Below are positions 1 through 14,860 of a stretch of DNA of 16,258 nt, one piece after another. The DNA is taken from the NCBI GenBank assembly GCA_007279775.1, contig QYPD01000033.1, positions 1 through 16,258 on the forward strand. The letters run 5' to 3'. Made by a program: the position numbers and the translations under genes. Each line of letters begins with the position of its first letter. The stretch's first letter is position 1. The notes beneath the pieces are model-generated. The model did no database searches, was not told the DNA's origin, and worked only from the letters and a program-made list of their open reading frames with translations. This stretch comes from Spirochaetia bacterium (lineage in GTDB: Bacteria; Patescibacteriota; Minisyncoccia; UBA6257; UBA9933).

Positions 1-9
1 TCCATATAT

Positions 10-18
10 ATTATATCA
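10..18 (-). promoter_or_regulatory. Candidate extended -10 promoter firing off the left edge
   Basis: Read on the minus strand, this is TGATATAAT: a perfect TATAAT box at 10-15 preceded by the TGn extension. No -35 element is visible at the expected distance, because that position holds the T-tract of the upstream terminator. It would start transcription of whatever gene lies beyond the left end of the window, insulated from the 89-751 gene by the terminator at 34-72. AT-rich DNA produces such boxes by chance, so confidence is low. Confidence 0.3.
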
Positions 19-33
19 GATTATTTTTGATAA

Positions 34-72
34 TAAAAAATCCCTTGGTCTCGCGAAACAAAACCAAGGGAT
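34..72 (-). terminator. Rho-independent terminator of the 89-751 gene
   Basis: A perfect 10-bp stem (ATCCCTTGGT at 40-49 pairing with ACCAAGGGAT at 63-72) with a 13-nt loop. In the minus-strand transcript it is followed by a run of U residues (the A-tract at 35-40). It lies 17 bp past the stop codon of the 89-751 gene. Confidence 0.9.
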
Positions 73-88
73 CAAGGCATTAAGGGTT

Positions 89-751
89 TCAGGAATTGCA
101 GGAGAAAACACGATAACCATCGTCCCACGTCGTCGGGCGCCCAACGGAGCCCGCGCGCACGCCCCAGCCACCGCCACGCCAGTAGACGCGCACCGCGCGA
201 AGCTCGCCGTTGACATCGCGAACATAGAAAATATTCGCGTAGCCGTTCGTGAGAAGGGCTCCGTCTTCCCTATTTTGCTGACGTTCCATAAGAGCGTAAA
301 CCGCAGAGAGTGTGGTTTCGGCGGTGTCGCCAAGTTCAGAAAGAATCGGTTTATCAATCGACGATTCCACTAATTCCGCGTAACGGAGTGTCGTCTCGGC
401 TGCCGACTCCTCGATTTTACCAAGGAACCATTCCTGGAAATTGTCTCCCAGATAGGAGATTTTGACCGGAGCGTTTTCGCCGGTGTCCACCACGAACTTG
501 TTGCGGGCGACGAATTTTTCGGTTGTCGCGGGGATATTTACCTCACCGATAAACCGAAGTAAACTCGGCCCCAAAGGTTTTAATCCGAAAAACTGGCGCA
601 ATTTATCACGATTTACATCCGCGATATTATTTGCGTCCCGAACGTCCGCGAGAAATCCGGATTCAATAACATCTTGTAATTGATCCGTCGGAGTATCACT
701 GAATAACGATAAAATCTTTTCCGCTTGTTTTAGGGTTGCACCTTTCTTCAT
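89..751 (-). CDS. Hypothetical protein of a CPR paralogous family with a variable-looking C-terminus
   Basis: A protein of 220 residues with no signal peptide or membrane segment. I do not know its function. The N-terminus (about 1-60) is helical and charged. The middle (about 60-130) carries GEVNIPATTEKFVARNKFVV and KISYLGDNFQEW, which I recall as constant parts of a family found in many copies in Parcubacteria. The last 34 residues (187-220) are rich in Trp, Gly and Arg, with RGGGW and W-DDGYRVFS, and faintly resemble the end of C-type-lectin or formylglycine-enzyme folds. The start is set by the AAGGAGG at 759-765, 7 nt before the ATG. The gene has its own promoter, structured leader and terminator, so it is monocistronic. 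Its 3' third is far more GC-rich than the rest of the window (49 of 60 bases at 121-180). Family recall is from memory and unverified. Confidence 0.85.
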   Translation of the reverse strand: MKKGATLKQAEKILSLFSDTPTDQLQDVIESGFLADVRDANNIADVNRDKLRQFFGLKPLGPSLLRFIGEVNIPATTEKFVARNKFVVDTGENAPVKISYLGDNFQEWFLGKIEESAAETTLRYAELVESSIDKPILSELGDTAETTLSAVYALMERQQNREDGALLTNGYANIFYVRDVNGELRAVRVYWRGGGWGVRAGSVGRPTTWDDGYRVFSCNS

Positions 752-758
752 GGCAAGT

Positions 759-765
759 CCTCCTT
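759..765 (-). promoter_or_regulatory. Strong Shine-Dalgarno site
   Basis: AAGGAGG on the minus strand, with 7 nt between GGAGG and the ATG at 749-751. It is the only full-strength ribosome binding site I find in the window and it fixes the start of the 89-751 gene. Confidence 0.9.
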
Positions 766-803
766 TTTGCGATCACCTTTTAGGGTGGCGCGTTTTAATC
801 CGC

Positions 804-855
804 ATCATTGCGGTTTTTAAATTCGTTTTTCAACGGACCTAAAAACCGCAATGAT
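804..855 (-). promoter_or_regulatory. Long leader hairpin with GAAA tetraloop (candidate cis-regulatory RNA)
   Basis: A perfect 16-bp inverted repeat (ATCATTGCGGTTTTTA and its complement, 840-855 and 804-819). Its 20-nt centre, read as minus-strand RNA, is GGUC-CGUU-GAAA-AACG-AAUU. CGUU and AACG pair around a GAAA (GNRA) tetraloop. GGUC opposite AAUU gives two G-U pairs, one U-A pair and a C-A mismatch, so the whole 52 nt forms a nearly continuous 24-bp rod. It lies within the untranslated leader of the 89-751 gene, about 40 nt upstream of the Shine-Dalgarno. No U-tract follows, so it is not a classical terminator. The G-U pairs and the GNRA loop exist only in the minus-strand RNA, which supports an RNA role over a DNA one. 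Confidence 0.75.
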
Positions 856-893
856 TTATTCATATAATTTTCAATGTTCAAATTAACGTTGTA

Positions 894-921
894 ATTATAC
901 CAGATTGTCAAAATTTGTCAA
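894..921 (-). promoter_or_regulatory. Near-consensus sigma70 promoter for the 89-751 gene
   Basis: On the minus strand: -35 TTGACA (916-921), a 16-bp spacer and -10 TATAAT (894-899), with TGG just before the -10 giving an extended -10 (TGnTATAAT). The start of transcription is expected near 887, giving a leader of about 135 nt. The -35 is the distal copy of a direct repeat, TTGACAA-ATT-TTGACAA, with a period of 10 bp. No terminator separates this promoter from the transketolase gene at 939, so readthrough is possible. Confidence 0.85.
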
Positions 922-938
922 GTCTTTGATTTTATTTT

Positions 939-1931
939 TTATTTCTTCCTTTTAATAACTTTTTTTACGGCGTTTATGATATCTTTCGGTTCAAGGCCGT
1001 ATTTTTTGAATAAATCTTTAGGCGCGGCGCTTTCGCCGAAAACATCTTTTGTGCCGATAAATTCCATCGGCACCGGATAGTTTTTTGCCAGAAGTTCTGC
1101 TATTGCTCCGCCCAATCCTCCCAAAATATTATGTTCTTCAACACTCACAACCGCTCCGCATTTTTTCACTAATTCAATTATTTTGTTTTCATCCAACGGT
1201 TTTACCGTATGGCTATTTAAAACAATTACTCCGATTTTTTCTTTTTCAAGCTCTTTGGCGGCTAAAAGCGCGTTGTATAAAACCGGCCCACAGCCAATAA
1301 TCAAAACTTCCGGCTTTTTCCCTCCGGCCAAAGACTGCCAAAAAATTTCCGCCTTGCCTATTGTAAAAGGCGTTTCTTCCGATGTGAAAACTGGAGTTTT
1401 TTCACGCGCAAACCTTAAATAAACCGGCCCGTTTATTTTAGCCGAAAAAATCGTCGCTTTTCTCGCTTCAATGGCATCAGCCGGGACAACCACCTTCATA
1501 TTTGGAATCGTCCGCATTATGGCAATATCTTCAAGCGCTTGGTGAGTGGCGCCGTCAAACCCGGTTAATAAACCCGCATGATGGCCGGCAATTTTAACAT
1601 TAGCGTCGTTATACGCGATTGCCGTCCTAATTTGTTCCAATGTCCTGCCCGGCGAAAAAACCGAATAAGTCGCCGTAAAGGGAATTTTCCCTGAAACTGC
1701 CAAACCGGCGGCAACTCCAACCAAATTTTGTTCTGCCACGCCAACCTGAAAAAATCTTTTCGGAAATTTCTCGGCGAAAAAATTCATCCGGCATGAATTT
1801 GAAACGTCTGCGGAAAGCCCCACTACGTTTTCATTTTCTTCGCCCAATTTAAGTAATCCTTCGCCGAATCCATCGCGAGTGGCCCTTTGCTCAATATCTT
1901 CCATAAAAATTTTATCCGATAATTTTTCCAT
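939..1931 (-). CDS. Transketolase, C-terminal subunit (split enzyme)
   Basis: A protein of 330 residues matching the pyrimidine-binding and C-terminal domains of transketolase. With the partner subunit encoded just upstream it transfers two-carbon units between sugar phosphates in the non-oxidative pentose phosphate pathway, using thiamine diphosphate, in the cytoplasm. QVGVAEQNLVGVAAGLA at about 62-78 carries the catalytic Glu67 that activates the cofactor; GATHQALED at about 127-135 holds the conserved substrate-side His. The C-terminal domain (about 205-325) is intact. It starts 8 bp after the stop of the N-terminal subunit, so the two are probably co-translated. There is only a distant GAGG upstream; Met10 is an alternative start. 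A split transketolase is common in archaea and CPR, so this is not a broken gene. DXS is excluded by the separate subunits and by the motifs. Confidence 0.93.
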   Translation of the reverse strand: MEKLSDKIFMEDIEQRATRDGFGEGLLKLGEENENVVGLSADVSNSCRMNFFAEKFPKRFFQVGVAEQNLVGVAAGLAVSGKIPFTATYSVFSPGRTLEQIRTAIAYNDANVKIAGHHAGLLTGFDGATHQALEDIAIMRTIPNMKVVVPADAIEARKATIFSAKINGPVYLRFAREKTPVFTSEETPFTIGKAEIFWQSLAGGKKPEVLIIGCGPVLYNALLAAKELEKEKIGVIVLNSHTVKPLDENKIIELVKKCGAVVSVEEHNILGGLGGAIAELLAKNYPVPMEFIGTKDVFGESAAPKDLFKKYGLEPKDIINAVKKVIKRKK

Positions 1932-1939
1932 TGTTTTTT

Positions 1940-2815
1940 TTAATCCGTTTCCTCTATTTTCCCTTTCAGTGTCTTTATTTCTTTTAACGCTTCTTCGGCT
2001 TGTTTTTTATTTAAAGGCGAAGCGTGCCAATGATAATCAAATTCCATAAAGTCCACTCCCTTGCCAGCAATCGTATGAGCGATGATAACTGTCGGTTTTT
2101 CAAAAATAGCCCGCGCCTCGTTCGCCGCTCCGATAAATTCTTCAATATTGTGGCCATCCATTTCTAAAACATGCCAATTAAAAGCTTCGTATTTTTCGCG
2201 CAAAGATTCAAGCGGCATTATATCTTCGGTAAAACCATCGCTTTGAATATTATTTCTGTCTATTATCGCCGTAAGATTTCCTAATTTATATTTTCCCGCG
2301 AGCATTATTGCTTCCCACGTGTTTCCGCAATCGTGCTCGGCATCCGACATAACGCAATAAACCTGATATTTCGCCCGCGGCGAGTTTACCGCACTATCGA
2401 GCCGCGCCGCCAAAGCCATGCCTACCGCCTGCGAAAGCCCTTCTCCCAAAGGGCCGGAAGAAGTTTCTATCCCCGGCAGCGCCTTGCGATGCGGATGCCC
2501 CTGGAGCCGGCTGTTTAATTTTCTTAAAGTTTTCAATTCTTCAACTGGGAAATATCCCGCTCTCGCTAAAGCCGCGTATTGAACCGGGCAAATATGACCA
2601 TTAGACAAAACTAACCTGTCTCTTTCCGGCCAATCCGGATTCTTTGGATTATGTTTCAATATATAAAAATAAAGCGCGGAAAAAATATCGGCCATCGCCA
2701 AAGAACCGGCAGGATGGCCGGAACCGGCGTTTAAAATCATTTCAATAACATCTTGCCGAAGCAAACATGCCGTGTTTTCAAGAAATCTGATTTTTTTACT
2801 GTTTAAAATTTCCAC
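1940..2815 (-). CDS. Transketolase, N-terminal thiamine-diphosphate subunit (split enzyme)
   Basis: A protein of 291 residues matching the first domain of transketolase, which binds the diphosphate of thiamine diphosphate. Visible landmarks are GSGHPAGSL (31-39), SNGHI (71-75, active-site His74), LQGHP (104-108) and GPLGEGLSQAVGMA (121-134). The cofactor motif runs from SDAEHDCGNTWEA (157-169) to NN (188-189). The family normally begins this motif with GDGE, so SDAE is a deviation, although the metal-binding Asp158 is kept. The start codon is GTG: an in-frame stop lies four codons upstream and the next Met (26) would remove conserved helix. No Shine-Dalgarno is seen. It lies 12 bp after rpiB and 8 bp before the C-terminal subunit, in one operon with gap. 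Confidence 0.93.
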   Translation of the reverse strand: MEILNSKKIRFLENTACLLRQDVIEMILNAGSGHPAGSLAMADIFSALYFYILKHNPKNPDWPERDRLVLSNGHICPVQYAALARAGYFPVEELKTLRKLNSRLQGHPHRKALPGIETSSGPLGEGLSQAVGMALAARLDSAVNSPRAKYQVYCVMSDAEHDCGNTWEAIMLAGKYKLGNLTAIIDRNNIQSDGFTEDIMPLESLREKYEAFNWHVLEMDGHNIEEFIGAANEARAIFEKPTVIIAHTIAGKGVDFMEFDYHWHASPLNKKQAEEALKEIKTLKGKIEETD

Positions 2816-2827
2816 GATTTTAATTTA

Positions 2828-3280
2828 TTAAATCTGACTTTCAATTTCACTAATCTTTTCAAGTCTCCTTTTGTGCGGCTCTTTTCCGGAAAAACCGGTT
2901 GCCAGCCAAGTGCCTAAAATTTTTTCGGCGTCTTCTTCGCTTAAAAAATCCGCCGGCAAAGACAAAACATTAGCATCATCGTCATTGCGCGCTAAAAACG
3001 CCTGGTCAGGATTAAAAGCTAAAGAAGAGCGTACTCCTTTAAATTTATTAGCCACCACGTCTACTCCCACGCCCGAACCGCAAATCAAAACGCCTTTGCG
3101 AGCCATTGGGTCTTGGCTTACCGCATCGCCTACAAGTTTGGCGAAATCAGGATAGTCATCATTTTCATCAAGCTTGGCATTTCCAACATCAATAACTTCG
3201 TAGCCTTTCTTCTCCAAGAAATTTTTCAGAGATTTTTTAAGATTGAATCCCCTGTGGTCGGCGCCGATGTAAATTAACAT
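2828..3280 (-). CDS. rpiB: Ribose-5-phosphate isomerase B (RpiB/LacA/LacB family)
   Basis: A protein of 150 residues, the usual family length. It interconverts ribose 5-phosphate and ribulose 5-phosphate, feeding the transketolase encoded next door. GADHRGF (6-12) is the phosphate- and ring-binding segment. LICGSGVGVDVVANK (65-79) contains the catalytic Cys67, with Ser69 where E. coli has the Thr of CGTG. NDDDANVLSLPA (99-110) replaces the usual HNDTNVLAFG, so the His that helps open the sugar ring (His99 in E. coli) is Asp100 here. The start codon lies against a heptamer repeat tract and has no Shine-Dalgarno. LacA/LacB-like isomerases are the alternative, but the transketolase context favours ribose. 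Confidence 0.9.
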   Translation of the reverse strand: MLIYIGADHRGFNLKKSLKNFLEKKGYEVIDVGNAKLDENDDYPDFAKLVGDAVSQDPMARKGVLICGSGVGVDVVANKFKGVRSSLAFNPDQAFLARNDDDANVLSLPADFLSEEDAEKILGTWLATGFSGKEPHKRRLEKISEIESQI

Positions 3281-3310
3281 GGTTTATGATTTAAGAATTA
3301 AGATTTAAGA
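3281..3310. repeat. Degenerate heptamer repeat tract between gap and rpiB
   Basis: Four tandem heptamers on the plus strand: TTTATGA, TTTAAGA, ATTAAGA, TTTAAGA (3283-3310), preceded by GG that touches the rpiB start codon. The consensus is NTTAAGA. A related tract with the same TAAGA core and 7-nt period lies at 11416-11483. It fills the place where an rpiB ribosome binding site would be. Confidence 0.65.
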
Positions 3311-3319
3311 AAAAATTAT

Positions 3320-4333
3320 TTACGCGGTTTTTAAAACGTGCTTCAAAAGCATTGCTGCATACCCCCATTCATTATCATACCAGCTCAAAACTTTAACCAA
3401 ATCGCCATCAACAACTTTGGTAAATTTCAAATCAATTATTGCCCCGTAAGGTTCAGCGACAATATCAGAAGAAACAATTTGCTCTTCAACGGTTTTTAAA
3501 ATTCCCTGCCAGCGCGGCTCTTTTTCCGCTTTTTTGAAAATTTCATTTACTTCTTCAACTGAAGTTTTTCTTTTCGCCAAAAAAGTGATATCGGCGATTG
3601 AACCGGCAACCACCGGCACTCTTAAGGCAATGCCGTCAAACTTTCCTTCCAATTCCTTAAACGCCCGCGTTACCGCGATTGCCGCGCCGGTTGTTGAAGG
3701 AATAATGTTTTGCGCTCCGGCTCTGCCTCGCCTAAAATCGCTTCCTTTAACCGGCGAATCAACTATTGTTTGCGTGTTCGTATAGGCATGAACCGTGTTT
3801 AAAACCGCCTTTTGAATGCCAATAGTTTCCGCCATTATCGCGATAACCGGATAAGCGGCGTTCGTGGTGCATGAAGCATTTGAAGAAAGGTTGCAAGTTT
3901 TCAGTTCGGCATCATTTAACCCTACAAGCACAGTCTTGCCTCCCGCAATTCCATCCGCGTCTTTCGCCGGCGCGGTTAAAACAACTTTTTTCGCGCCCGC
4001 GTCCAAATGAACTTTAGCTTTTTCAAAAGATTCAAAAACTCCGGTCGCTTCAATAACCAAATCGATATTTAAATCTTTCCATGGAAGTTTCGTCGGGTCT
4101 TTTTCCTGAATAAATTTTATTTTTCTCCCGTCAATAATCAAAAACCCATTCCCCTTGTCACATTTAACATTTCCCTTATAGGCCCTATAAACCGAATCGT
4201 ATTTAAAAAGATAAGCGAGATTTTCCAAATCGCCCAAATCATTTATGGCAACAACTTCAATTTTCGGCTCGGAAAGCGCCTGGCGCAAAAATAACCTACC
4301 AATTCTTCCAAAACCATTTATCGCTATTTTCAT
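3320..4333 (-). CDS. gap: Glyceraldehyde-3-phosphate dehydrogenase (type I, NAD-dependent)
   Basis: A protein of 337 residues, full length. It oxidises glyceraldehyde 3-phosphate to 1,3-bisphosphoglycerate in cytoplasmic glycolysis. The Rossmann motif INGFGRIGRLFLRQAL is at 5-20, and Asp32 at the end of the second strand predicts NAD rather than NADP. The catalytic Cys155 sits in SNASCTTN (151-158) and His182 in NTVHAYTN. The phosphate-site segment FRRGRAGAQNIIPSTTGAA follows, and WYDNEWGY lies near the C-terminus. It is the first gene of gap-rpiB-transketolase, so its product and the pentose phosphate enzymes share triose phosphate. There is no Shine-Dalgarno: a long imperfect palindrome ends only 8 bp before the ATG. 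Confidence 0.97.
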   Translation of the reverse strand: MKIAINGFGRIGRLFLRQALSEPKIEVVAINDLGDLENLAYLFKYDSVYRAYKGNVKCDKGNGFLIIDGRKIKFIQEKDPTKLPWKDLNIDLVIEATGVFESFEKAKVHLDAGAKKVVLTAPAKDADGIAGGKTVLVGLNDAELKTCNLSSNASCTTNAAYPVIAIMAETIGIQKAVLNTVHAYTNTQTIVDSPVKGSDFRRGRAGAQNIIPSTTGAAIAVTRAFKELEGKFDGIALRVPVVAGSIADITFLAKRKTSVEEVNEIFKKAEKEPRWQGILKTVEEQIVSSDIVAEPYGAIIDLKFTKVVDGDLVKVLSWYDNEWGYAAMLLKHVLKTA

Positions 4334-4341
4334 GATAAAGC

Positions 4342-4454
4342 AATCCGAAACTACGAATTACATCCGAATCTGCGAACAAATCCGAATAGCTAACGTCGTT
4401 TTTACTTTTTTCGTAGCCATTCGTAGATTCGAATAAATTTGTAGATTGGGATTA
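4342..4454. repeat. Long imperfect palindrome of CGAAT/ATTCG units
   Basis: The left arm begins AATCCGAAACTACGAATT (4342-4359) and continues through CCGAATCTGCGAA (4364-4376). The right arm (about 4410-4454), read in reverse complement, is AATCCCAATCTACAAATT, then TTCGAATCTACGAA and GGCTACGA. The arms match over about 40 positions with scattered mismatches and one 11-nt gap. CGAA cores recur every 8 to 11 bases. It fills nearly the whole gap between the RNA methyltransferase stop and the gap start. I recall similar attcgtagattcg-type repeats in CPR intergenic DNA; that is memory, not a search. Confidence 0.75.
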
Positions 4455-4456
4455 TT

Positions 4457-4981
4457 TTAATCATTATACAATTCTCTTATTTTAAAAACAACAATGCCGA
4501 ATGCTACGGCGACATTGAGCGATTCTTTTTTGCCAAACATCGGAATTTCCAATATTTTATCGGCGCGCTTTAAAATTGACGGCGGCAAACCATTCATCTC
4601 ACTTCCCAATATCAAAGCGATTTTTTGTCTACTTTCCCGCGGGAAAGTAGACGAATTTTTAACTTTATAATATGGGATCGATTTTTTGTTTTGCTCAATG
4701 GCGAAAATTTTATATCCGTCTTTTTTTAATCTTTTGAGCAATTTTGTAATTGCTTGCACTGAATGCGCCGAAGCATCCCACTTAACATATTTTTCCGCGC
4801 CTAAAGAAACCTTAGTTAACTGCTGGCGCGGCCGGCCAAAAGAATCAACCGGCGCTGACGTAATCCCGCAAAGATAAATCTTTTCAACTCCAGCCGCGTC
4901 GGCGGTTCGGAATATTGAACCTACATTATGTAAACTTCTAACGTTATGAAGAATAATGACCATAACAATATTATAATACAC
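4457..4981 (-). CDS. SpoU/TrmH-family RNA 2'-O-methyltransferase
   Basis: A protein of up to 174 residues in the SPOUT superfamily, predicted to methylate a ribose in tRNA or rRNA using S-adenosylmethionine bound in a trefoil knot. Motif 1 is NVRSLHNVGSIFRTADAAGV (13-32), with the catalytic Arg; motif 2 is LILGSEMNGL (123-132); motif 3 is IPMFGKKESLNVAVA (146-160). There is no N-terminal substrate domain, so the target cannot be named. The frame opens with GTG at 4979-4981, but ATG at 4961-4963 (Met7) is more likely: a TATAAT at 4969-4974 places the transcription start near that ATG, suggesting leaderless translation. Residues 110-119 (NSSTFPRESR) have no counterpart in the family as I know it and are encoded by a perfect 26-bp palindrome. 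Confidence 0.92.
   Translation of the reverse strand: MYYNIVMVIILHNVRSLHNVGSIFRTADAAGVEKIYLCGITSAPVDSFGRPRQQLTKVSLGAEKYVKWDASAHSVQAITKLLKRLKKDGYKIFAIEQNKKSIPYYKVKNSSTFPRESRQKIALILGSEMNGLPPSILKRADKILEIPMFGKKESLNVAVAFGIVVFKIRELYND
4627..4652. repeat. Perfect 26-bp palindrome inside the RNA methyltransferase gene
   Basis: GTCTACTTTCCCG is followed directly by its exact complement CGGGAAAGTAGAC. It is in frame and encodes part of residues 110-119, between strands leading to motif 2. A perfect 26-bp palindrome in AT-rich coding DNA is not expected by chance and suggests a small inserted repeat. Confidence 0.85.
4969..4974 (-). promoter_or_regulatory. Candidate -10 box of the RNA methyltransferase gene
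   Basis: TATAAT on the minus strand, ending 6 bp before the ATG at 4961-4963. The -35 region is poor. It sits between the terminator at 5022-5050 and the gene, where a promoter is needed. Confidence 0.45.
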
Positions 4982-5021
4982 TTAATCGATAATTGTTTTG
5001 TTCGACTTATTTTCTGATAAT

Positions 5022-5050
5022 AAAAAATCCCGCCTCACGCGGGATTTTTT
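5022..5050 (-). terminator. Rho-independent terminator of the zinc ribbon gene
   Basis: A perfect 12-bp stem (AAAAAATCCCGC at 5022-5033 with GCGGGATTTTTT at 5039-5050) and a 5-nt loop. With A and T tracts on both sides it could work in both directions. It lies 6 bp past the stop of the 5057-5254 gene, the only gene that reads into it. Confidence 0.92.
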
Positions 5051-5056
5051 ATTTGT

Positions 5057-5254
5057 TTATCTTCCGAAAGACCTGGGGCCTCCGAATGATTGGCGTTTTT
5101 CACGGAAGCAATTTCTGCACATAAGCTGGTCCATTCTTTCCGGGCTCGGTTCAAACGGAAGCTCAGTTATTTCGCCTCCGCACTTCGAGCATTTCCAGTT
5201 GCCCTGAAACATCTGCCTTTGAAAACCGCCTTGTTGGTTATCGTTATAAGCCAT
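5057..5254 (-). CDS. Small zinc ribbon protein (CxxC-x20-CxxC)
   Basis: A protein of 65 residues. Cys22, Cys25, Cys46 and Cys49 form two CxxC knuckles 20 residues apart, around ELPFEPSPER. This resembles the CxxC-x17-CxxC small zinc-binding domain (C-x2-C-G-E...PF-P...R...YC-x2-CF), which is frequent in CPR and of unknown function. Both tails are rich in Gly, Gln, Phe and Arg (NQQGGFQRQ at 6-14, and FGGPRSFGR at the end), as in flexible nucleic-acid-binding tails. RNA or DNA binding is therefore an inference. It is followed by its own strong terminator, which suggests substantial independent expression. No Shine-Dalgarno is seen. Confidence 0.85.
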   Translation of the reverse strand: MAYNDNQQGGFQRQMFQGNWKCSKCGGEITELPFEPSPERMDQLMCRNCFREKRQSFGGPRSFGR

Positions 5255-5357
5255 TTTTGCTTTTTATTTTAATATTTCGCCCTTTTATTTATTCCGAATT
5301 TAAGGCAAAACAGCTTTTTAAAAGCGTTTACTTTTGTCTTAAAGCTTTTTAGTTAAT

Positions 5358-6068
5358 TTATTTTTTTAACGCTTCATCAATCGCCTGCGAAAAAGTCGCG
5401 TACGGGTAAGCGCCTTGAATTATTTTATCGCCGATAAAAATGGTTGGCGTGGAAATTTGCGCAATGACCGTTTTGGCCTCATTTGTGTCTTTTTCAACCT
5501 CGGAAGCGTATTTTTTTGAATCATAACAGGAAAGAAAATCGTCAACGTTCATTTTTAAATCTGTCGCTATTTTTTTGAATGTTTCGCGGTTCAAATTACC
5601 GGTATTTTCGCTGTTGCCGGATTTTTTAAGTTCTTTGATTTCGGTTTCAAAAATCGCGTCGTGATAATCCCAATATTTTCCTTGATCTTTAGCGCAATCG
5701 GCCGCCTCCGAAGCATCCGTTGATTCTTGTCCGAGGAATGCCAAGTCTTTATAAACCATATTTATCTTTCCGGTTTTAACGTAGTTTTCCCTGATTTGAC
5801 GTTCCGCTTCTTGGTAGAATTTTCCGCAAAACGGGCACTGGTAATCGCTGAAAATGAAAACTGTGAGCGGAGCCTTTGAATCTCCCAAAATAACGTCATC
5901 GTCTATTTGAGGTTTGGCCGATAACTCCGCAGTTTTTTTTGTATCTGCGGTTTGAGTTTTTGGATTTTTTATTCCGACCGCATAAATAATAGAGCCTGAA
6001 ATTAAAATAGCGGCTATTAGAATGCTTGCCGCCAAGAAATTATCGTATTTTTTTGATGTATCGTCCAT
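5358..6068 (-). CDS. Membrane-anchored DsbA-like thiol-disulfide oxidoreductase
   Basis: A protein of 236 residues. A single membrane segment at 11-33 follows a short cytoplasmic tail, with the rest predicted outside. A linker (34-58) leads to a DsbA-type thioredoxin fold (thioredoxin_4/BdbD group). It has the LGDSKAPLTVFIFSDYQCPF start, the active site C78-P-F-C81 and the cis-Pro loop STPT (206-209). It is expected to introduce or shuffle disulfides in exported proteins. An additional pair, Cys125 and Cys181, could form a structural disulfide. No VKOR or DsbB partner is in the window. The start ATG lies about 20 bp after a -10 box, so the leader is very short and has no Shine-Dalgarno. Confidence 0.93.
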   Translation of the reverse strand: MDDTSKKYDNFLAASILIAAILISGSIIYAVGIKNPKTQTADTKKTAELSAKPQIDDDVILGDSKAPLTVFIFSDYQCPFCGKFYQEAERQIRENYVKTGKINMVYKDLAFLGQESTDASEAADCAKDQGKYWDYHDAIFETEIKELKKSGNSENTGNLNRETFKKIATDLKMNVDDFLSCYDSKKYASEVEKDTNEAKTVIAQISTPTIFIGDKIIQGAYPYATFSQAIDEALKK

Positions 6069-6087
6069 ATATAAATGTTATAATAAT

Positions 6088-6113
6088 ATTATAGGATTTT
6101 TTTTGATTGTCAA
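6088..6113 (-). promoter_or_regulatory. Candidate promoter of the DsbA-like gene
   Basis: On the minus strand, TTGACA (6108-6113) and TATAAT (6088-6093) are both perfect, but separated by only 14 bp, including a run of eight A residues. That is 2-3 bp shorter than ideal. A shifted box, TAATAT, gives a 16-bp spacer. The -35 abuts the inverted-repeat element starting at 6114-6118. Confidence 0.6.
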
Positions 6114-6265
6114 CATGCCCGGTAGTGAAAACTCGACATAAACTCGCCTCGCAAAAATTAGATTTTTGAATAAATTAAGCTATAAATATAATAAAGATAT
6201 ATTAAATTAAGCATAGATTCTTCGGCTCGCTTTTTTGCGCAGTCGAGTTTCTACTACCGGGTATG
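6114..6265. repeat. Inverted-repeat element between the DsbA-like gene and recO
   Basis: Terminal arms CCCGGTAGTGAAAACTCGAC (6118-6137) and, in reverse complement at 6242-6261, CCCGGTAGTAGAAACTCGAC: 18 of 20 positions match. Similarity extends outward to CATG/CATA (6114 and 6265), so the right arm includes the recO ATG. The 104-bp interior is AT-rich. It holds a CAAAAATTAGATTTTTG hairpin (6151-6167) and a 10-bp direct repeat TAAATTAAGC (6171-6180 and 6203-6212). There is no open frame of its own. The shape resembles a MITE or a palindromic repeat; no target duplication is obvious. Confidence 0.7.
6187..6192 (+). promoter_or_regulatory. Possible -10 box for recO inside the repeat element
   Basis: TATAAT on the plus strand, with only weak -35 candidates (TTGAAT at 6166-6171 with a 15-bp spacer). 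If used, recO and its downstream genes are driven from within the repeat. The surrounding DNA is so AT-rich that chance is a real alternative. Confidence 0.3.
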
Positions 6266-6766
6266 AAAGAATTTTTAACTGAGGCGTTGGTTTTGGATGT
6301 CGAGGACTCCGCCGAATTCGACAAATTTGTCATTTTATACACTAAAGAATTGGGCAAGATTTCCGCCAGAGCCAGAGGCGCCAGAAAAATCACTTCAAAA
6401 TTAACAGGGCATCTTCAACCGCTTGATTTTACAAGAGTACGTCTGATAGAGAAAAACGGTTTTCAAATAGCCGACGCTTTGGCTTTTAAGAAAATGGAGC
6501 GGTCGCCGGAGTCTTTGGTGGCGGTGAAATTCATTAAAGAAATGACATTCGATCTCCAACCCGACCATGATTTGTGGAATATTTTGAAAAAAAACAAAAA
6601 AATTTCCAATAAGGATTTACTGAGCGTCTTAGGCTTTGACCCGACTTTCGCCGAATGTGGAGTTTGTAACGTGAAAAAACCGGATTTTTTTTCAAAAACC
6701 GAGCAGATATTTTTATGCAAGCGTTGCGCTTCCAAAGCGCCGAAAAATGAGATAGTATTAATATAA
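6263..6766 (+). CDS. recO: Recombination mediator RecO, short form
   Basis: A protein of 167 residues, against about 240 in most bacteria. RecO anneals single strands and helps load RecA in gap repair. The N-terminal OB fold is clear (FLTEALVLDVEDSAEFDKFV, then YTKELGKISARARGARK and LTGHLQPLDFTRVRL). The helical middle is shortened, and a zinc knuckle remains near the C-terminus (Cys132, Cys135, Cys152, Cys155, spaced C-x2-C-x16-C-x2-C). The ATG is part of the right arm of the inverted-repeat element, and no Shine-Dalgarno precedes it. The stop overlaps the next ATG by one base (TAATG), which implies translational coupling with the surface protein gene. Confidence 0.9.
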   Translation: MKEFLTEALVLDVEDSAEFDKFVILYTKELGKISARARGARKITSKLTGHLQPLDFTRVRLIEKNGFQIADALAFKKMERSPESLVAVKFIKEMTFDLQPDHDLWNILKKNKKISNKDLLSVLGFDPTFAECGVCNVKKPDFFSKTEQIFLCKRCASKAPKNEIVLI

Positions 6767-8586
6767 TGATACCATCGGACGATTTAAATAAAAATAAAAT
6801 CAATTTAAAAAATCCCGAGAAAATCGGCTGGGAAGGAGATACGCCGAGGACTGGAAATTTCAGTTCAAATATTTATTCAAAAATAGATAAAATAAGTAGA
6901 CCGGTTTTTTGGACGGCGCTCGTCGTTTTTGTTTTGACTGCCGCCGGAATAGGTTTTTATTTTTATTCTTATCTGGTTAATCGTGATATTGCTTTTGTTT
7001 TGAACGCTCCACAAAGCGTTTTATCCGGCGTTCCGTTTGATATTGAAGCGGGGGCAAAAAATAATTTTAATAACTCGTTAAACGACGTGAAGATATCACT
7101 TGTTTTGCCTAATGGAGCGTTTTTTATCGGAGAAAGTCAGGGGAAAAGATATTACGATAAAAGTTTCGGCAATCTTGGAAAAGACGCCAATTTTCAGGAG
7201 AGAATTCCGATAGTGGTTATTCCCGGCGGCCAGACACTTAAATTCGACGTCGAGATTTCTTATTACACTCCGGCCTTGGGTTCAAAAGCGCGGTTTAAAC
7301 AGATAAGAACTGTTGAAGTTTCCGCGGACGAACCGGCGCTGAAATTAGACATTTCCGCTCCTCAAAAAATTTTAAACAACGAAGATTTTGAAATAGAAAT
7401 CCGTTATCAAAACATTTCAAACGTCCAATTTGAAAACGCGGAGTTGAAATTGGATTATCCAAGCTTTTTTACTTTTAAAAGCGCGACAGTTGCCCCTTCT
7501 TCGGGAAATAATGTTTGGGAATTAGGTTCTCTTCCCGCAAAAGGCGTGGAGGGAAATTTCATAATAAAGGGTAAAGCGGTGAATCCAAACGATTCTTTGA
7601 GTAATTTTGAAATCAATGGAGAATTGATCGCGGAAATTTCCGGCCAAAAATATTCAATCAATAAAAAATCAGCCCAGTTAAGCATTGTTTCGTCACCCTT
7701 GGTTTTAAACGTAAGTTTGAACGACAGCCAAAATTACGTCGCTTCTTTGAGAGATAATTTAAGATATAAAATAAATTATCGCAATTCTTCCGATATCGGG
7801 CTTAATGATATAGTTATAATCGCTAAATTAACCGGTGAAATGTTTGATTTCAAAACTTTGGGCGGCGGCGGATTTTTCGATTCAAAAAGCAATACGATAA
7901 CCTGGAACGTCGCCAATACTTCAAATCTTCGCGTGATTAATCCGGGCGGTGAGGGCTACGTGGAATTTCAAATACAGACAAAAGAAAGTTATCCAATCAA
8001 AAGGCAAGGCGATAAAAATTTTATGTTGAACGTTGCCGCTGAAATATCTTCGCCAACAGTGCCCTATTACGTTTCAAGCGATAAAACAATCAGCTTCGCC
8101 AATATCAAAAACAATGTTTCGGGCGCGGTCGCGATTGTCGCCAAGGCGCCTTTCTACGACCCGAGTTCCGGAATAAGCAATAAGGGGCAGTTTCCGCCAA
8201 GAGTAAATCAACCGACCAATTTCACCATACATTGGACTATAACCAATTATTCAACCGACGTAAGCAATGTTAAAATAAGCGCGTTTTTGCAATCGGGCGT
8301 CCGCTGGACAGACCAGGTTAAAAGCAGTATAAATTCAGTGCCTTCGTATGATGAAAGGACCCAGGAGATTGTTTGGAATATAGATAAAGTTTTGGCGACG
8401 CAGGGCGTTATTTTAAGCCCGATAGAAGCGATTTTCCAAGTGGAGGCTACGCCTAACGTCACTCAAGTCGGCCAAAATATGCCGCTTTTGGGCCAAACGA
8501 CGATTCAGGCGAAAGATGATTTCAATAATATTATATTAAACAATTCGGCGGCTCCGCTCACGAGCGGAACGACTGTTGTCCAATAA
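6766..8586 (+). CDS. Membrane-anchored surface protein with DUF11-like beta-sandwich repeats
   Basis: A protein of 606 residues. A cytoplasmic tail of about 45 residues precedes one membrane helix (about 47-70, ending FYFYSYLV). The remaining 530 or so residues lie outside. They look like consecutive Ig-like or DUF11-type beta sandwiches, with repeated themes such as FDIEAGAKNNFNNSLNDVKI, FEIEIRYQNISNVQFENAEL, LRYKINYRNSSDIGLNDIVI and FTIHWTITNYSTDVSNVKI. Each has alternating hydrophobic strands and Asn-rich turns, then a W-x-V or W-x-I strand (VWELGSL, ITWNVAN, IVWNIDK). Such proteins are common in CPR envelopes; a structural or adhesive role is inference. It overlaps recO by one base and glyS by up to 11 bases, so it is part of a tight operon. 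Confidence 0.85.
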   Translation: MIPSDDLNKNKINLKNPEKIGWEGDTPRTGNFSSNIYSKIDKISRPVFWTALVVFVLTAAGIGFYFYSYLVNRDIAFVLNAPQSVLSGVPFDIEAGAKNNFNNSLNDVKISLVLPNGAFFIGESQGKRYYDKSFGNLGKDANFQERIPIVVIPGGQTLKFDVEISYYTPALGSKARFKQIRTVEVSADEPALKLDISAPQKILNNEDFEIEIRYQNISNVQFENAELKLDYPSFFTFKSATVAPSSGNNVWELGSLPAKGVEGNFIIKGKAVNPNDSLSNFEINGELIAEISGQKYSINKKSAQLSIVSSPLVLNVSLNDSQNYVASLRDNLRYKINYRNSSDIGLNDIVIIAKLTGEMFDFKTLGGGGFFDSKSNTITWNVANTSNLRVINPGGEGYVEFQIQTKESYPIKRQGDKNFMLNVAAEISSPTVPYYVSSDKTISFANIKNNVSGAVAIVAKAPFYDPSSGISNKGQFPPRVNQPTNFTIHWTITNYSTDVSNVKISAFLQSGVRWTDQVKSSINSVPSYDERTQEIVWNIDKVLATQGVILSPIEAIFQVEATPNVTQVGQNMPLLGQTTIQAKDDFNNIILNNSAAPLTSGTTVVQ

Positions 8587-9874
8587 AAAACAAGCTGTGG
8601 ATAATTTAATGGAAAAAATAGTTTCTTTATGCAAACGGCGCGGATTTATTTTCCCGGGTTCGGAGATTTATGGCGGTTTGGCAAACTCCTGGGATTACGG
8701 CCCGCTTGGCGTTGAAATTAAAAACAACATTAAAAATCTTTGGTGGAAAAAATTCGTCCAAAGCAGGAACGACATCGTTGGGATAGACGCGGCTTTGATT
8801 ATGAATCCGAAAGTTTGGGAAGCGAGCGGACATCTTTCAGTCGGATTCGCCGACTTTTTGGTCGAGTGTAAAAAATGCCATAGTCGTTATCGCGCCGACC
8901 AAATTGATTTAAAAGCTGCTTGCGAAAATTGCGAAACGAATAATAGTTTTACCGAACCTCACCAATTCAATTTAATGTTTAAAACATTTATCGGTCTGGC
9001 GGAAGAAAAAGAAAATGTTGCTTATTTCCGACCAGAAACCGCGCAGGCGATGTTCGTTGATTTTAAAAGCGTTTTGGGCACGACTCGGAAAAAATTGCCT
9101 TTCGGTATTGCACAAATCGGTAAAGCGTTTCGTAATGAAATCACTCCGGGGAATTTTATTTTCCGTACCCGCGAATTCGAGCAGATGGAAATAGAATATT
9201 TTATCAGAGAGAGTGATTGGGGAAATTCTTTTGAAAACTGGCGGAAAGAAATGCATAGTTGGATGGAAAACGATTTGGGGTTGGACAAAAAACATGTCCA
9301 CGAGCTGGAAATTCCGGAAAACGAGCGCGCTCATTATTCAAAGCAAACAATAGACCTGGAATATGATTTCCCGTTCGGCAGAAAAGAACTTTACGGTTTG
9401 GCATACAGGGGCGATTTTGATTTAAGAAATCATTTTAAAGAAGCTCCGTATAAAGATTTAGAAACCAATGATAAGTTTTGGCCTCATGTCATTGAGCCTA
9501 CATGGGGAGTAGACAGATCTGTTTTAGCGGTTTTAACAGAACATTATAGCGAAGAAGAAGATAGAATTGTGTTAAAATTGCCATTTAAGCTTGCGCCCTA
9601 CAAAGCGGCGGTTTTCCCGCTTTTGGCGAATAAGCCGAAATTGGTTGAAAAAGCTAAAGAAATTTACGACAATTTACGAAAAGACTTCATGGTTGCTTGG
9701 GACGACAGGGGGAATATCGGCAAACGCTATTATTCGCAAGATGAAATCGGCACACCGTTTTGCATCACAGTTGATTTTGACAGTTTGGAAGACGATAGCG
9801 TTACGATTCGCGACCGCGACACCGCCAAGCAAGAAAGAATAAAAATAAGGGATTTGGCCAGCAGGTTAAGATAA
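8576..9874 (+). CDS. glyS: Glycyl-tRNA synthetase, class II alpha2 type
   Basis: A protein of 432 residues that charges tRNA-Gly as a homodimer; this is the eukaryote- and archaea-like single-chain form. It starts RRGFIFPGSEIYGGLANSWD, has a zinc knuckle (Cys98, Cys101, Cys116, Cys119), FRPETAQAMFVDF (151-163), class II motif 2 around IGKAFRNEITPGNFIFRTRE (181-200) and motif 3 in IEPTWGVDRSVLAVL. The anticodon-binding domain (about 340-432) includes WDDRGNIGKRYYSQDEIGTP. The open frame begins with TTG at 8576, overlapping the previous gene by 11 bases. ATG at 8609 (residue 12) starts MEKIVSLCKRRGF and is an equally credible start, because conservation begins there. Neither has a clear Shine-Dalgarno. 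Confidence 0.95.
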   Translation: MSNKKQAVDNLMEKIVSLCKRRGFIFPGSEIYGGLANSWDYGPLGVEIKNNIKNLWWKKFVQSRNDIVGIDAALIMNPKVWEASGHLSVGFADFLVECKKCHSRYRADQIDLKAACENCETNNSFTEPHQFNLMFKTFIGLAEEKENVAYFRPETAQAMFVDFKSVLGTTRKKLPFGIAQIGKAFRNEITPGNFIFRTREFEQMEIEYFIRESDWGNSFENWRKEMHSWMENDLGLDKKHVHELEIPENERAHYSKQTIDLEYDFPFGRKELYGLAYRGDFDLRNHFKEAPYKDLETNDKFWPHVIEPTWGVDRSVLAVLTEHYSEEEDRIVLKLPFKLAPYKAAVFPLLANKPKLVEKAKEIYDNLRKDFMVAWDDRGNIGKRYYSQDEIGTPFCITVDFDSLEDDSVTIRDRDTAKQERIKIRDLASRLR

Positions 9875-9879
9875 TCTTC

Positions 9880-11415
9880 ATGAAGCGATTTTTTGAAATT
9901 CTTCCGGGAGCTCTCGCCTGGATAACGATAATTTTAATGTTTTTGCTTTCGTGGCTCGCGCCGGCGTGGACAGCTATTTTTATAATCCTTTTTGACATTT
10001 ATTGGCTCCTTAAAACGGTTTATTTATCAATTCATTTGCGGGTGAGTTTTAAAAAAATAAGGGAAAATTTAAAAGTAAATTGGCTTAATGAGCTCGCGAA
10101 TTTACGCGAATGTTCCACAAATAACACGAATAATATTAGTGAAATTCGTGGCCAAATTTGTGATTATTCGCGAATTTATCATTTAATAATTCTCCCGATG
10201 TATAAAGAGCAGTACGAAGTTGTCAGGGAGTCTTTTAACGCGTTGGCGAAAACGAATTATTCGAAAGACAAGATAATCGTTGTTTTGGCGCCCGAGGAAA
10301 GGGCGGGCGAAGAAACGCGCGAAACCGCTAGAAAAATAGAAAACGAGTTTAGCGGTAAATTCTTTAAATTTTTAACCGTTTTTCATCCTGTGGATTTGCC
10401 GGGTGAAATTCCGGGCAAGGGTTCAAACCAGGCTTGGGCGGCAAAGGAAGTAAAAAAATCAATTATAGATTCTTTGCAAATCCCGTACGAAAATATTTTA
10501 CTTTCGGTTTTTGATGTTGATACTCAGGTACCATTAAATTATTTCGGCAGGCTCACTTATGTGTTTTTGACCTGTAAAAATCCTCAACGTTCAAGCTTCC
10601 AGCCAGTTCCGTTGTTCACGAACAATATTTTCCAGGCAACGGCCTTGGCGAGAGTAATCGCCTTTTCTTCAACCTTTTGGCATATGATTCAGCAATCTCG
10701 ACCGGAACGCCAGACAACTTTTTCTTCGCATTCAATGTCTTTTAAGGCGATTACGGAAATAGGTTTCTGGGATAAAGATATTGTTTCTGAAGATTCGCGG
10801 ATTTTTTGGCAGTGTTACCTTCATTACGGTGGCGATTGGCGCGTGGAAGCGCTTTTTTATCCGGTCTCAATGGACGCCAACGTGGCGCCGACTTTTTGGA
10901 AAACGATGGTAAACCAGTATAAACAACAACGTCGCTGGGGCTGGGGATGCGAAAACATACCTTATTTTTTGAAAGGATTCGGAAAAGATTCGGCGGGGAA
11001 AAAAAGAATTCCACTGGGCAAAAAATTATATTGGACGTTTAATATACTTGAAAGTTTTCATTCGTGGGCGACGAACACGCTTATGATATTCGCGCTCGGT
11101 TGGCTCCCAATTTATTTGGGCGGGGCGAATTTTAGCTTTACGGTGCTTTCATATAATTTGCCCCAAGTGACGAAATTTATTATGACTTTAGCTATGGTCG
11201 GAGTAGTTAGTTCGGCGATTTTAAGCATAATTCTTCTTCCGCCGAAACCGAATTGGTTTAAAAAACGGCATTATGTTTTTTACATTCTTCAGTGGCTTTT
11301 AATGCCCATTACTTTGGTTATTTTCGGCGCCATCCCGGGGCTTGAGGCGCAAACCAGAATGATGCTCGGCGGAAAATTTCGCCTCGGTTTTTGGGTTACC
11401 CCAAAGCACCGTTAA
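9880..11415 (+). CDS. Family 2 glycosyltransferase, multi-pass membrane protein
   Basis: A protein of 511 residues. Two N-terminal membrane helices (about 8-27 and 29-50) are followed by a cytoplasmic GT2 catalytic domain (about 99-355) and about four C-terminal helices (388-495). Motifs: HLIILPMYKE (101-110) begins the nucleotide-binding fold, DVDT (212-215) is the metal-binding DxD, SED (303-305) supplies the catalytic acid and QQRRW (349-353) is the QxxRW signature of processive or membrane GT2 enzymes. It likely builds or exports a surface glycan; the donor and product cannot be told. It starts 5 bp after the glyS stop. Residues about 73-98, just before the catalytic domain, are encoded by an imperfect palindrome and look like an insertion. 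Confidence 0.92.
   Translation: MKRFFEILPGALAWITIILMFLLSWLAPAWTAIFIILFDIYWLLKTVYLSIHLRVSFKKIRENLKVNWLNELANLRECSTNNTNNISEIRGQICDYSRIYHLIILPMYKEQYEVVRESFNALAKTNYSKDKIIVVLAPEERAGEETRETARKIENEFSGKFFKFLTVFHPVDLPGEIPGKGSNQAWAAKEVKKSIIDSLQIPYENILLSVFDVDTQVPLNYFGRLTYVFLTCKNPQRSSFQPVPLFTNNIFQATALARVIAFSSTFWHMIQQSRPERQTTFSSHSMSFKAITEIGFWDKDIVSEDSRIFWQCYLHYGGDWRVEALFYPVSMDANVAPTFWKTMVNQYKQQRRWGWGCENIPYFLKGFGKDSAGKKRIPLGKKLYWTFNILESFHSWATNTLMIFALGWLPIYLGGANFSFTVLSYNLPQVTKFIMTLAMVGVVSSAILSIILLPPKPNWFKKRHYVFYILQWLLMPITLVIFGAIPGLEAQTRMMLGGKFRLGFWVTPKHR
10095..10178. repeat. Palindromic repeat in frame inside the glycosyltransferase gene
   Basis: The left arm carries CGCGAAT (10105-10111), CACAAAT (10116-10122) and CACGAAT (10125-10131). 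The right arm carries their complements in mirrored order: ATTCGTG (10144-10150), ATTTGTG (10156-10162) and ATTCGCG (10166-10172), around a 12-nt centre. A 10-bp direct repeat CGCGAATTTA bounds it (10095-10104 and 10169-10178). The translated stretch (ECSTNNTNNISEIRG and flanks) is polar and lies between the membrane helices and the first catalytic strand. The CGAAT units resemble the intergenic palindrome at 4342-4454. Confidence 0.75.
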
Positions 11416-11483
11416 GGTTTAAGATATAAGAAACAAGACGTAGAAAAACAAGTTTTTGTTTCTTATACCTTATGTCTTAAACC
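11416..11483. repeat. Hairpin of heptamer repeats between convergent genes
   Basis: The left arm GGTTTAAGATATAAGAAACAA (11416-11436) pairs with TTGTTTCTTATA and TCTTAAACC in the right arm (11456-11483), leaving a bulge of 7-8 nt on the right. Both arms have a 7-nt period with a TAAGA or TCTTA core: TAAGATA, TAAGAAA, CAAGACG on the left; TTTCTTA, TACCTTA, TGTCTTA on the right. It starts one base after the glycosyltransferase stop and ends before the trpS stop, so it may act as a two-way terminator, although no clean T-tract follows the stem. Confidence 0.7.
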
Positions 11484-11500
11484 TTTATTTCTTGTCTCAT

Positions 11501-12592
11501 CTATATCAGGCCCACTTTCTTTTTAACTTCTAAGATTTTTTTGTTGGCGATTTTTTCGGCTTTTTTGGAGCCTGCCGCTAAAACAGTGGAAAGTTTTGCT
11601 GGATTTTTAAGCAAGGCCGTTTTCTTTTTTCTGAAATCGGCAAAATAATCGGCGGTAAGCTCCGCTAAATCATTTTTAAGGGTTGAATAATTTTTGCCCG
11701 CGAATTTCTTTCCCAGTTTTTCAACTTTTTCTCCGCTTAAAGCCGAATAAATTTCAAGCAAATTGCTTATCGCCGGTTTATCTTTTTTATGTTTGATTTC
11801 CGAGCCGGAATCCGTAACCGCTCTTTTGATTTTATTTTTTATTTCTTCCGGAGAATCGTCTATAAAAAGGCAGCTTTCCGGCTGAGATTTAGACATTTTC
11901 TTTTCCGGATTCGCCAAGCTCATTACTCTTGGCGTTTCCGTATGAAGCGCCTGCGGTTCAATAAATGTTTTGCCGAATTTAGTATTAAATTTACGCGCGA
12001 GTGTGCGGGTAATTTCAAGATGTTGGTCTTGATCATTGCCAACCGGAACAAACTTGGCATCGTAAATGATGATATCTGCCGCCATAAGAACTGGATAGTC
12101 AAAAAGGCCAATATTTGTCACTAGGGCATTAGCTTCTTCCGCACTTATTTGATCAGACCAAATTTTTTCTCCTTTATTATGTTTTGCGTCTAGGTGTGCC
12201 CAAATTTCTTCACGATGATCTTTTTTTGAGGGATCGAAAACTATTTCAGCTTTATCTTTAAATTGAGTCATCCTTTTAAGCTCTCCCATCGGCGTAATTG
12301 TATTTAAAACCCACATTAATTCGCTGTGCGCCGGAATCTGAGACTGCTGAAAAATCACTGACTTTTTCGGGTCTAAGCCGGCAGCCAAAAAGTCGGCGGT
12401 CAAATTCAAAATCTGTTTTTGTTTTTCTTTGGGGTTAAAATTTTCTGTTAAAGAGTGTAAATCGGCGATAAAAAAGTAGCATTGGTATTTTCCGGAGTTT
12501 TGCAAATCAACGAAGTTTTTCAACGCGCCCAAATAATTTCCGATATGGAGTTTTCCAGTTGGCTGAACGCCGGAAACTAAAACCGGTTTCAT
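11501..12592 (-). CDS. trpS: Tryptophanyl-tRNA synthetase
   Basis: A protein of 363 residues, against about 330 in E. coli. It charges tRNA-Trp. VSGVQPTGKLHIGNYLGAL (6-24) includes the HIGH-type motif HIGN (16-19). GELKRMTQFKDK (103-114) is present, and KKMSKSQPES includes KMSKS (232-236). DYPVLMAADI and PVGNDQDQHLE, from the tryptophan pocket, are intact. The extra length comes mainly from a charged insertion at about 115-158 (DPSKKDHREEIWAHLDAKHN and following), where the usual enzyme has some 8-12 residues before NxGLxDYP. The gene starts 5 bp after the RNase J stop with no Shine-Dalgarno, so translation is probably coupled. Confidence 0.95.
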   Translation of the reverse strand: MKPVLVSGVQPTGKLHIGNYLGALKNFVDLQNSGKYQCYFFIADLHSLTENFNPKEKQKQILNLTADFLAAGLDPKKSVIFQQSQIPAHSELMWVLNTITPMGELKRMTQFKDKAEIVFDPSKKDHREEIWAHLDAKHNKGEKIWSDQISAEEANALVTNIGLFDYPVLMAADIIIYDAKFVPVGNDQDQHLEITRTLARKFNTKFGKTFIEPQALHTETPRVMSLANPEKKMSKSQPESCLFIDDSPEEIKNKIKRAVTDSGSEIKHKKDKPAISNLLEIYSALSGEKVEKLGKKFAGKNYSTLKNDLAELTADYFADFRKKKTALLKNPAKLSTVLAAGSKKAEKIANKKILEVKKKVGLI

Positions 12593-12597
12593 AAAAT

Positions 12598-14367: not shown

Positions 14368-14414
14368 ATATTTTTATTTATTTAATAATATTTTTTAAAT
14401 GCGCGCCACAAAAG

Positions 14415-14497
14415 TGGGCGAGGAGGGACTTGAACCCTCAAGATCTCGCGATCATAGACTCCTGAAGCCTACGTGTTTGCCATTTCACCACTCGCCC
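14415..14497 (-). tRNA. tRNA-Leu(CAG)
   Basis: An 83-nt cloverleaf. Acceptor GGGCGAG pairs with CTCGCCC; the D stem is GTG/CAC; anticodon stem TAGGC/GTCTA closes the loop TTCAGGA with anticodon CAG (14462-14464). The long variable arm is GATC-GCGA-GATC, and the T arm is GAGGG-TTCAAGT-CCCTC. The long variable arm and anticodon identify leucine (codon CUG). The discriminator is A and the next bases are not CCA, so CCA must be added after transcription. It begins 4 bp after the cupin stop and lies 47 bp before RNase J, probably in a shared transcript. Confidence 0.95.
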
Positions 14498-14501
14498 GTT
14501 T

Positions 14502-14837: not shown

Positions 14838-14860
14838 AAGAAAAAGTCAAGTTATTAAAT

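Follow-up and report, generated by a model that had tools for sequence, protein, structure and literature searches.

The window, meaning the whole stretch of DNA that was analysed, is 16,258 nt long (contig QYPD01000033.1, positions 1 to 16,258 of the forward strand, assembly GCA_007279775.1). In the intergenic region behind a transketolase gene it carries a promoter and a long hairpin, here called the rod, that lead into a gene on the minus strand. In the direction of transcription, this unit consists of the following features.

916 to 921, minus strand: -35 box TTGACA, read from the sequence; TTGACA is common before the rods of relatives
894 to 899, minus strand: -10 box TATAAT, read from the sequence, 16 nt from the -35 box
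866 to 879, minus strand: boxA-like element in diverged form, GAACATTGAAAATT, after the promoter and before the rod, its position agreeing with GTTCTTTGATAA-like boxes of other leaders
804 to 855, minus strand: leader RNA rod (hairpin), fold z -5.7, seed member of covariance model R1, with covariation in relatives
769 to 791, minus strand: small hairpin GCGC-CACC-CTAAAA-GGTG-ATCGC preceding the Shine-Dalgarno sequence, from sequence comparison
759 to 764, minus strand: Shine-Dalgarno sequence AGGAGG, read from the sequence
89 to 751, minus strand: gene for a 220-aa protein of a diversity-generating retroelement (DGR) target family, residues 65-220 weakly C-type-lectin-like
92 to 205, minus strand: variable repeat (VR), limits approximate, differing from relatives' template repeats (TRs) chiefly at A sites
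31 to 73, minus strand: intrinsic terminator directly past the stop codon, a stem of -22.7 kcal/mol followed by a U-rich tail

Transcription of this unit would start near position 887. Read from 855 to 804, the rod forms a single 52-nt fold in which 16 Watson-Crick pairs at the base are followed by two G·U pairs, a U-A pair, a C·A mismatch and a CGUU/AACG stem closed by a GAAA loop, reproducing exactly the minus-strand structure described in an earlier, sequence-only reading of this DNA. That reading had also placed the rod between a good promoter and a strong ribosome binding site, and the TTGACA and TATAAT boxes before it and the AGGAGG after it bear this out. The rod by itself folds with -28.1 kcal/mol, and the 149-nt leader (752-900) with -44.9 kcal/mol, compared with -24.5 +/- 3.6 for 200 dinucleotide shuffles, none of which was equally stable. 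Listed as inverted repeat I10 of the window, the rod has no second DNA copy in its own genome, where a 70-nt query returned itself on both strands and otherwise only matches of 17 and 14 nt. Model R1 scores it at 42.5 bits on the minus strand, a match that holds by construction because the rod is one of the seeds, and no plus-strand match to it is found among the matches listed at E up to 10; a search of the window's genome on its own also gave a weak 15.9-bit match elsewhere. Two finer details of the earlier description stand in part. The GAAA tetraloop and inner pairs are present here but not conserved in relatives, which keep instead a GC step, an A-U/G·U step and a U·G pair, and the small hairpin drawn as GCG-CACC...GGUG-CGC has its 4-bp CACC/GGTG stem in the minimum-energy fold, whereas the GCG/CGC pairs are unformed. 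By eye, a shape resembling this small hairpin occurs in loci L030 and L018.

The gene behind the rod, left as unknown by the sequence-only reading, can be placed. Its ORF has 594 homologs, its protein matched no Pfam family, and the C-terminal stretch of the family interleaves invariant residues with freely varying ones. In 13 relatives (L002, L016, L017, L021, L024, L027, L033, L034, L037, L038, L043, L044 and L066) a repeat of the gene end, the template, and a reverse transcriptase (RT) gene lie downstream. Mismatches between VR and TR fall at TR adenines in 22/22 cases at L019, 17/17 at both L024 and L004, 16/16 at L038 and 20/21 at L034, with lower shares at L018 (16/21) and L037 (17/22); because the listing was restricted to repeats in which 70% or more of the mismatches fall at A in one copy, these are cases and not a rate. 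Judged from sequence, such adenine-biased differences between gene and repeat are the signature of a DGR, and the gene behind the rod belongs to a DGR target family.

The window's contig stops 88 nt beyond the end of the ORF. No template repeat belonging to the window turned up in the assembly in a 300-nt search. Compared with relatives' TRs, the window VR differs at 70-80% of TR A sites and at 20-29% of the remaining positions across the 14 best rows, which include two duplicate pairs (L016/L141 and L004/L248). The window genome does encode a DGR-type RT on contig C38 (RVT_1, 87.1 bits; also a row of RT profile A3), truncated by the contig end and similar to the RTs found beside relatives' TRs; it may supply the part of the window's DGR that is lacking downstream. 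This RT (L074, G000 contig C38, 4652-5716) adjoins a G run at the contig end. A second DGR-like locus of the same genome (L075, G000 contig C17, 2193-5531), where R1 finds no rod, holds what read from their sequences as a pilin-like ORF with a lectin-like end and an Avd-sized ORF (3761-4108), together with an RT split over two frames beside a short repeat reading RERERE. Past the window gene, informal inspection found that the inverted repeat has the look of an intrinsic terminator, with a loop longer than the 4-nt GRNA of DGR DNA hairpins. Target homologs also appear in Verrucomicrobia/Opitutaceae assemblies (L053, L055) and in one record labelled Spirochaetota (P0060), a distribution that suggests transfer or binning error.

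Conservation of the rod was examined by folding 103 leaders of the gene family, about a quarter of which contain long rods with similar arms. Twenty-four rods were trimmed and 20 hand-picked as seeds, with L034, both L067 copies and L162 omitted as too long. Among the seeds 92.7% of cells pair, double changes occur in 19 of 22 pairs, and the covariation score is 0.767 as against 0.274 for shuffled and at most 0.160 for slid controls. Selecting the seeds by folding inflates the paired fraction, so model R1 was built from them and rods outside the seed were gathered; these come from a model that rewards pairing and so are not wholly independent. Several R1 searches were combined by hand into a set of 72 rods; for three of them (L167, L238, L245) the strand of the promoter and gene was used although the opposite one had a score 0.3-1.2 bits higher. 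The non-seed alignment (A4) took in 44 of 45 rods, L208 being omitted and seven others having been dropped for length. In these 44 rods (42 distinct), all absent from the R1 seed, compensatory changes again exceed controls: 90.9% of cells are paired, double changes are seen at 18 of 23 pairs, and the score is 0.665, compared with 0.223 shuffled and at most 0.155 slid. The covariation among homologs that the sequence-only reading had proposed as a check on RNA-structure selection is thus present in both seed and non-seed sets.

Particular letters are conserved as well. In the non-seed columns a C-G pair stands at 11-55 in 42/42 rods, a G-C pair at 10-56 in 40/42 and an A-U pair at 16-50 in 41/42, while columns 17-49 hold G·U in 36/42, G-C in 6/42 and A·C in none; the same site in the seeds is G·U in 15/20 and A·C once. 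A second wobble, the U·G following columns 17-49, occurs in 24/42 non-seed rods. Over all positions G·U outnumbers A·C by 112 to 50 in the non-seed rods and by 50 to 16 in the seeds, and 27 of the 50 non-seed A·C pairs belong to a two-position internal loop at columns 14-15 in one subgroup. That wobbles are kept as G·U and rarely as A·C indicates selection on the mRNA strand, so the strand-specific argument first made for the window's rod extends to the rod set. The better-scoring strand is likewise that of the downstream gene as read at 28 of 30 genome-scan loci (exceptions L191 and L204), three of which (L187, L207, L208) precede a gene that is not a DGR target. Rods range from 48 to 109 nt, and their loop and middle pairs vary freely.

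The rod is far from universal in the family. By hand tally it occurs in 26 of the 103 family leaders, and the other 77 have other structures or none recognised, so that homologs lacking the hairpin, which the sequence-only reading had named as counting against its proposal, do in part exist and the rod is not required for a DGR target. An early count of hairpins of -20 kcal/mol or below gave a small difference, 21/70 target leaders vs 6/26 intergenic controls. Several rod-less target leaders among L017, L039, L066, L004, L132, L025, L133 and L014 show by eye a short hairpin next to the Shine-Dalgarno sequence, some of the form (G)GC-AAGUC..hairpin..GAC-GCC, and possibly represent a second leader RNA class. 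The leaders of L043 and L173 carry long rods with near-identical arms, TTCTTGAAGCCCC.../...GGGGCTTCAAGAA, upstream of the target, to which R1 is blind. Alphaproteobacterial homologs (Afipia, Bradyrhizobium; L050, L054, L057, L059, L061, L062) have by eye a leader hairpin of the CCTTG...CAAGGA type, which would hide the Shine-Dalgarno sequence.

Across relatives, the typical unit consists of a promoter, often a boxA-like box, the rod, a Shine-Dalgarno sequence, an ORF of about 210 aa and a terminator. TTGACA lies within 100 nt upstream of 42 of the 72 rods, against 2.2 expected from mononucleotide shuffling. A start codon follows 15-100 nt past the rod in 64 of 69 cases (median 54 nt), the rod-led ORF has a median length of 211 aa, with an intrinsic terminator behind 56 of 66 such ORFs.

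Where rods occur was assessed by scanning 244 genomes of the order with R1, without protein input, at an E cutoff of 0.1. Rods were matched in 37 genomes, three of them (G055, G176, G180) with matches all below 25 bits, at up to four distinct places per genome (G135). Because the scan took at most 23 candidates per genome under strict filters and did not pick up the window's own rod, which the single-genome search recovered at 42.5 bits, its yield is a lower bound. By hand count it comprises 58 distinct places, of which 47 were taken up; L185 is the same site as L139, and 10 weaker ones (at most 36.6 bits) were left out. Thirty-nine of the 47 places precede members of one DGR-target superfamily. 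Three more probably do so, judging by a frame-broken member at L235 and a pair with similar variable ends at L216 and L225. L226 lies at a contig end, and four places precede something else: L242, L207, L208 and L213 (9163). With gene names read from the ORFs, L242 (2090-2143, 46.9 bits) lies near grpE-dnaK and has the look of a full leader, and L208 (1483-1535, 31.1 bits) precedes rpmI-rplT; L207 (1501-1550, 37.5 bits) precedes a membrane-like ORF. Named carriers of the rod, according to record titles, are Taylor-, Nomura-, Portnoy-, Brenner- and Moranbacteria and other Parcubacteria, and no R1 match exceeds 12.6 bits at L169-L177, nine loci representing other classes in the phylum.

A following ORF is present for 69 of the 72 unique rods, and 63 of the 69 proteins fall into one BLAST-linked cluster (single linkage, E 1e-5), within which 15 have a local template repeat. 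A template repeat whose differences are mostly at adenines lies within 1500 nt downstream of 16 of the 60 rod-led genes having at least 1400 nt downstream. The rod also precedes other modular subfamilies of DGR targets, and in rod-led genes outside the window's subfamily differences from the TR again fall mostly at adenine (L209 18/19, L239 15/15, L231 22/24, L240 20/23). At E 1e-15 a DGR-type RT is found in 24 of 37 rod genomes vs 79 of 207 others (Fisher p 0.0023; hand tally with phylogeny ignored and the window genome counted as rod-less); 13 rod genomes have no RT at this threshold, some of the assemblies being incomplete. The loci searched have no R1 match at E 0.01 or better in the stretch from template repeat to RT, and a weak one lies past the template repeat of L166 (13.1 bits, E 0.85). 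Tandem targets each with its own rod occur at L067 (1166-1256 and 2935-3027) and L022 (2326 and 3688), and the L067 rods differ in the inner stem by changes that look compensatory by eye. In genome G130, the variable ends of two rod-led genes (L227 and L228) differ at 16 sites with few A in either copy, as would be expected of two VRs diversified independently.

DGRs of clade 2 in CPR bacteria are parcubacterial and cell-encoded, with targets that typically have no recognisable domain, as set out in the main text of Roux et al. 2021 (PMC8144416). The loci described here resemble that account in being cell-encoded, in a target without recognisable domain, in a C-terminal VR and, where complete, in a TR and RT downstream; they differ from it by the shared leader RNA. 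That main text, supplements aside, mentions no hairpin, promoter, leader, untranslated region or secondary structure. In BPP-1 as well, a DGR target gene is accompanied by a hairpin; there a DNA hairpin/cruciform with a stem of 7-10 bp and a GRNA loop lies just downstream of the VR and sequence upstream of the VR is dispensable (the text of PMC3240598); the rod, unlike that element, lies upstream and is a sense-strand RNA. In combining a boxA-like box with a hairpin in a 5' leader, rod leaders resemble the boxA/boxB elements of nut, put and rrn and the LoaP-type leader elements. Those elements serve long operons, whereas rod units are short and terminated, and a Nus-type factor for the rod is hypothetical. 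As a conserved structure before a set of genes the rod is also like the cis-regulatory leader motifs of Rfam, although Rfam 15 at gathering score found only tRNA in the window and seven DGR loci, and at a lax threshold the rod matches in five loci were sub-threshold microRNA models. The full-text literature, with bioRxiv and most subscription papers outside its scope, yielded no article containing both 'diversity-generating retroelement' and 'leader RNA', and no such DGR leader is described in the titles and abstract openings among the matches listed. The rod is apparently an undescribed RNA structure, and we know of no described control of parcubacterial DGR targets.

Both the structure of the rod and its link to DGR targets are well supported. 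The rod is an RNA structure of the mRNA strand, conserved between promoter and ORF and associated with DGR targets, and it is probably a new cis-acting 5' leader RNA of these genes, recognised by a factor and serving one shared control after initiation; the transcription start, recognising factor and direction of effect are what we infer. A serious variant of this reading, owing to the boxA-like element, is a special case in which that element at the 5' end of the transcript, together with the rod, modifies RNA polymerase as boxA does in rRNA leaders, giving processive antitermination or protection from early termination. Boxes of the form GT[TA]C[TC]TT are present in 33 of 72 leaders, with 2.3 expected (mononucleotide shuffle; the motif was picked once the leaders had been inspected). 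Most lie 17-31 nt ahead of the rod, near the inferred transcript start. After promoter-like sites the box is present in 9/22 cases with a rod vs 3/47 without, two of those three preceding rod-less family members (L018, L052), and visual inspection shows similar boxes in the rRNA leaders of some of these genomes (for example L258 and the window's own L264). Yet 4 of 14 rRNA leaders fit the pattern, two of them (L252, L261) far upstream, and about half of the rod leaders lack the box or have it in diverged form, including the window's, whose copy does not fit the pattern. The units are moreover short, with a strong terminator in 56 of 66, which argues against long-range antitermination since there is little to read through, and overall the variant seems unlikely.

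It is also rather unlikely that the rod acts generically, as a 5' hairpin for stabilisation or RNase III processing that needs nothing beyond a long stem close to the 5' end. The rod is long and stable and lies near the inferred 5' end, and its variable loop, middle pairs and length (48 to 109 nt) suit such a role, but the letters and wobbles kept in divergent stems (C-G 42/42, A-U 41/42, G·U 36/42) go beyond what stability alone requires. An inverted repeat, with some stems scoring on both strands, could in principle be a DNA element, namely an operator palindrome, a cruciform or a DGR homing signal, given that DGRs do use a DNA hairpin (the text of PMC3240598). That hairpin, however, sits just downstream of the VR and the rod about 600 bp upstream of it, and together with the excess of G·U over A·C (112 vs 50 and 50 vs 16) this makes a DNA role very improbable. 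Least credible is an intrinsic terminator or attenuator, or the relic of a mobile element, as might be supposed of a strong intergenic hairpin behind a transketolase gene: a U-rich tract follows just one of 72 rods (L199) and is absent in the window, the genome holds no other DNA copy, and rods carry compensatory changes.

On the favoured reading of the rod as a factor-recognised leader RNA, transcripts would begin about 20-35 nt before the rod, which would fold as soon as it is transcribed. A trans-acting factor, most likely a host protein, would then recognise it through the GC step and the two wobble pairs, so that the genes for hypervariable proteins would share a single control, acting after initiation on transcript fate or on translation; no candidate partner gene is obvious. 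A more far-reaching and distinctly tentative proposal, which we regard as possible but doubtful, is a regulon of hypervariable proteins, in which one RNA-binding factor would control modular DGR-target mRNAs genome-wide across Parcubacteria-type bacteria, with expression of the diversified receptors coordinated with, or feeding back on, retroelement activity. If so, the leader would be a portable tag for new DGR targets, including ones far from any template repeat. The distribution of the rod suggests that DGR-target genes of these very small, uncultured bacteria share a common control signal, and the shared leader RNA offers a regulatory handle, a route to remote DGR targets that needs nothing but an RNA search, and a molecule for pull-down. 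It suggests, too, that the massively variable proteins of these bacteria are expressed as a coordinated set and not gene by gene.
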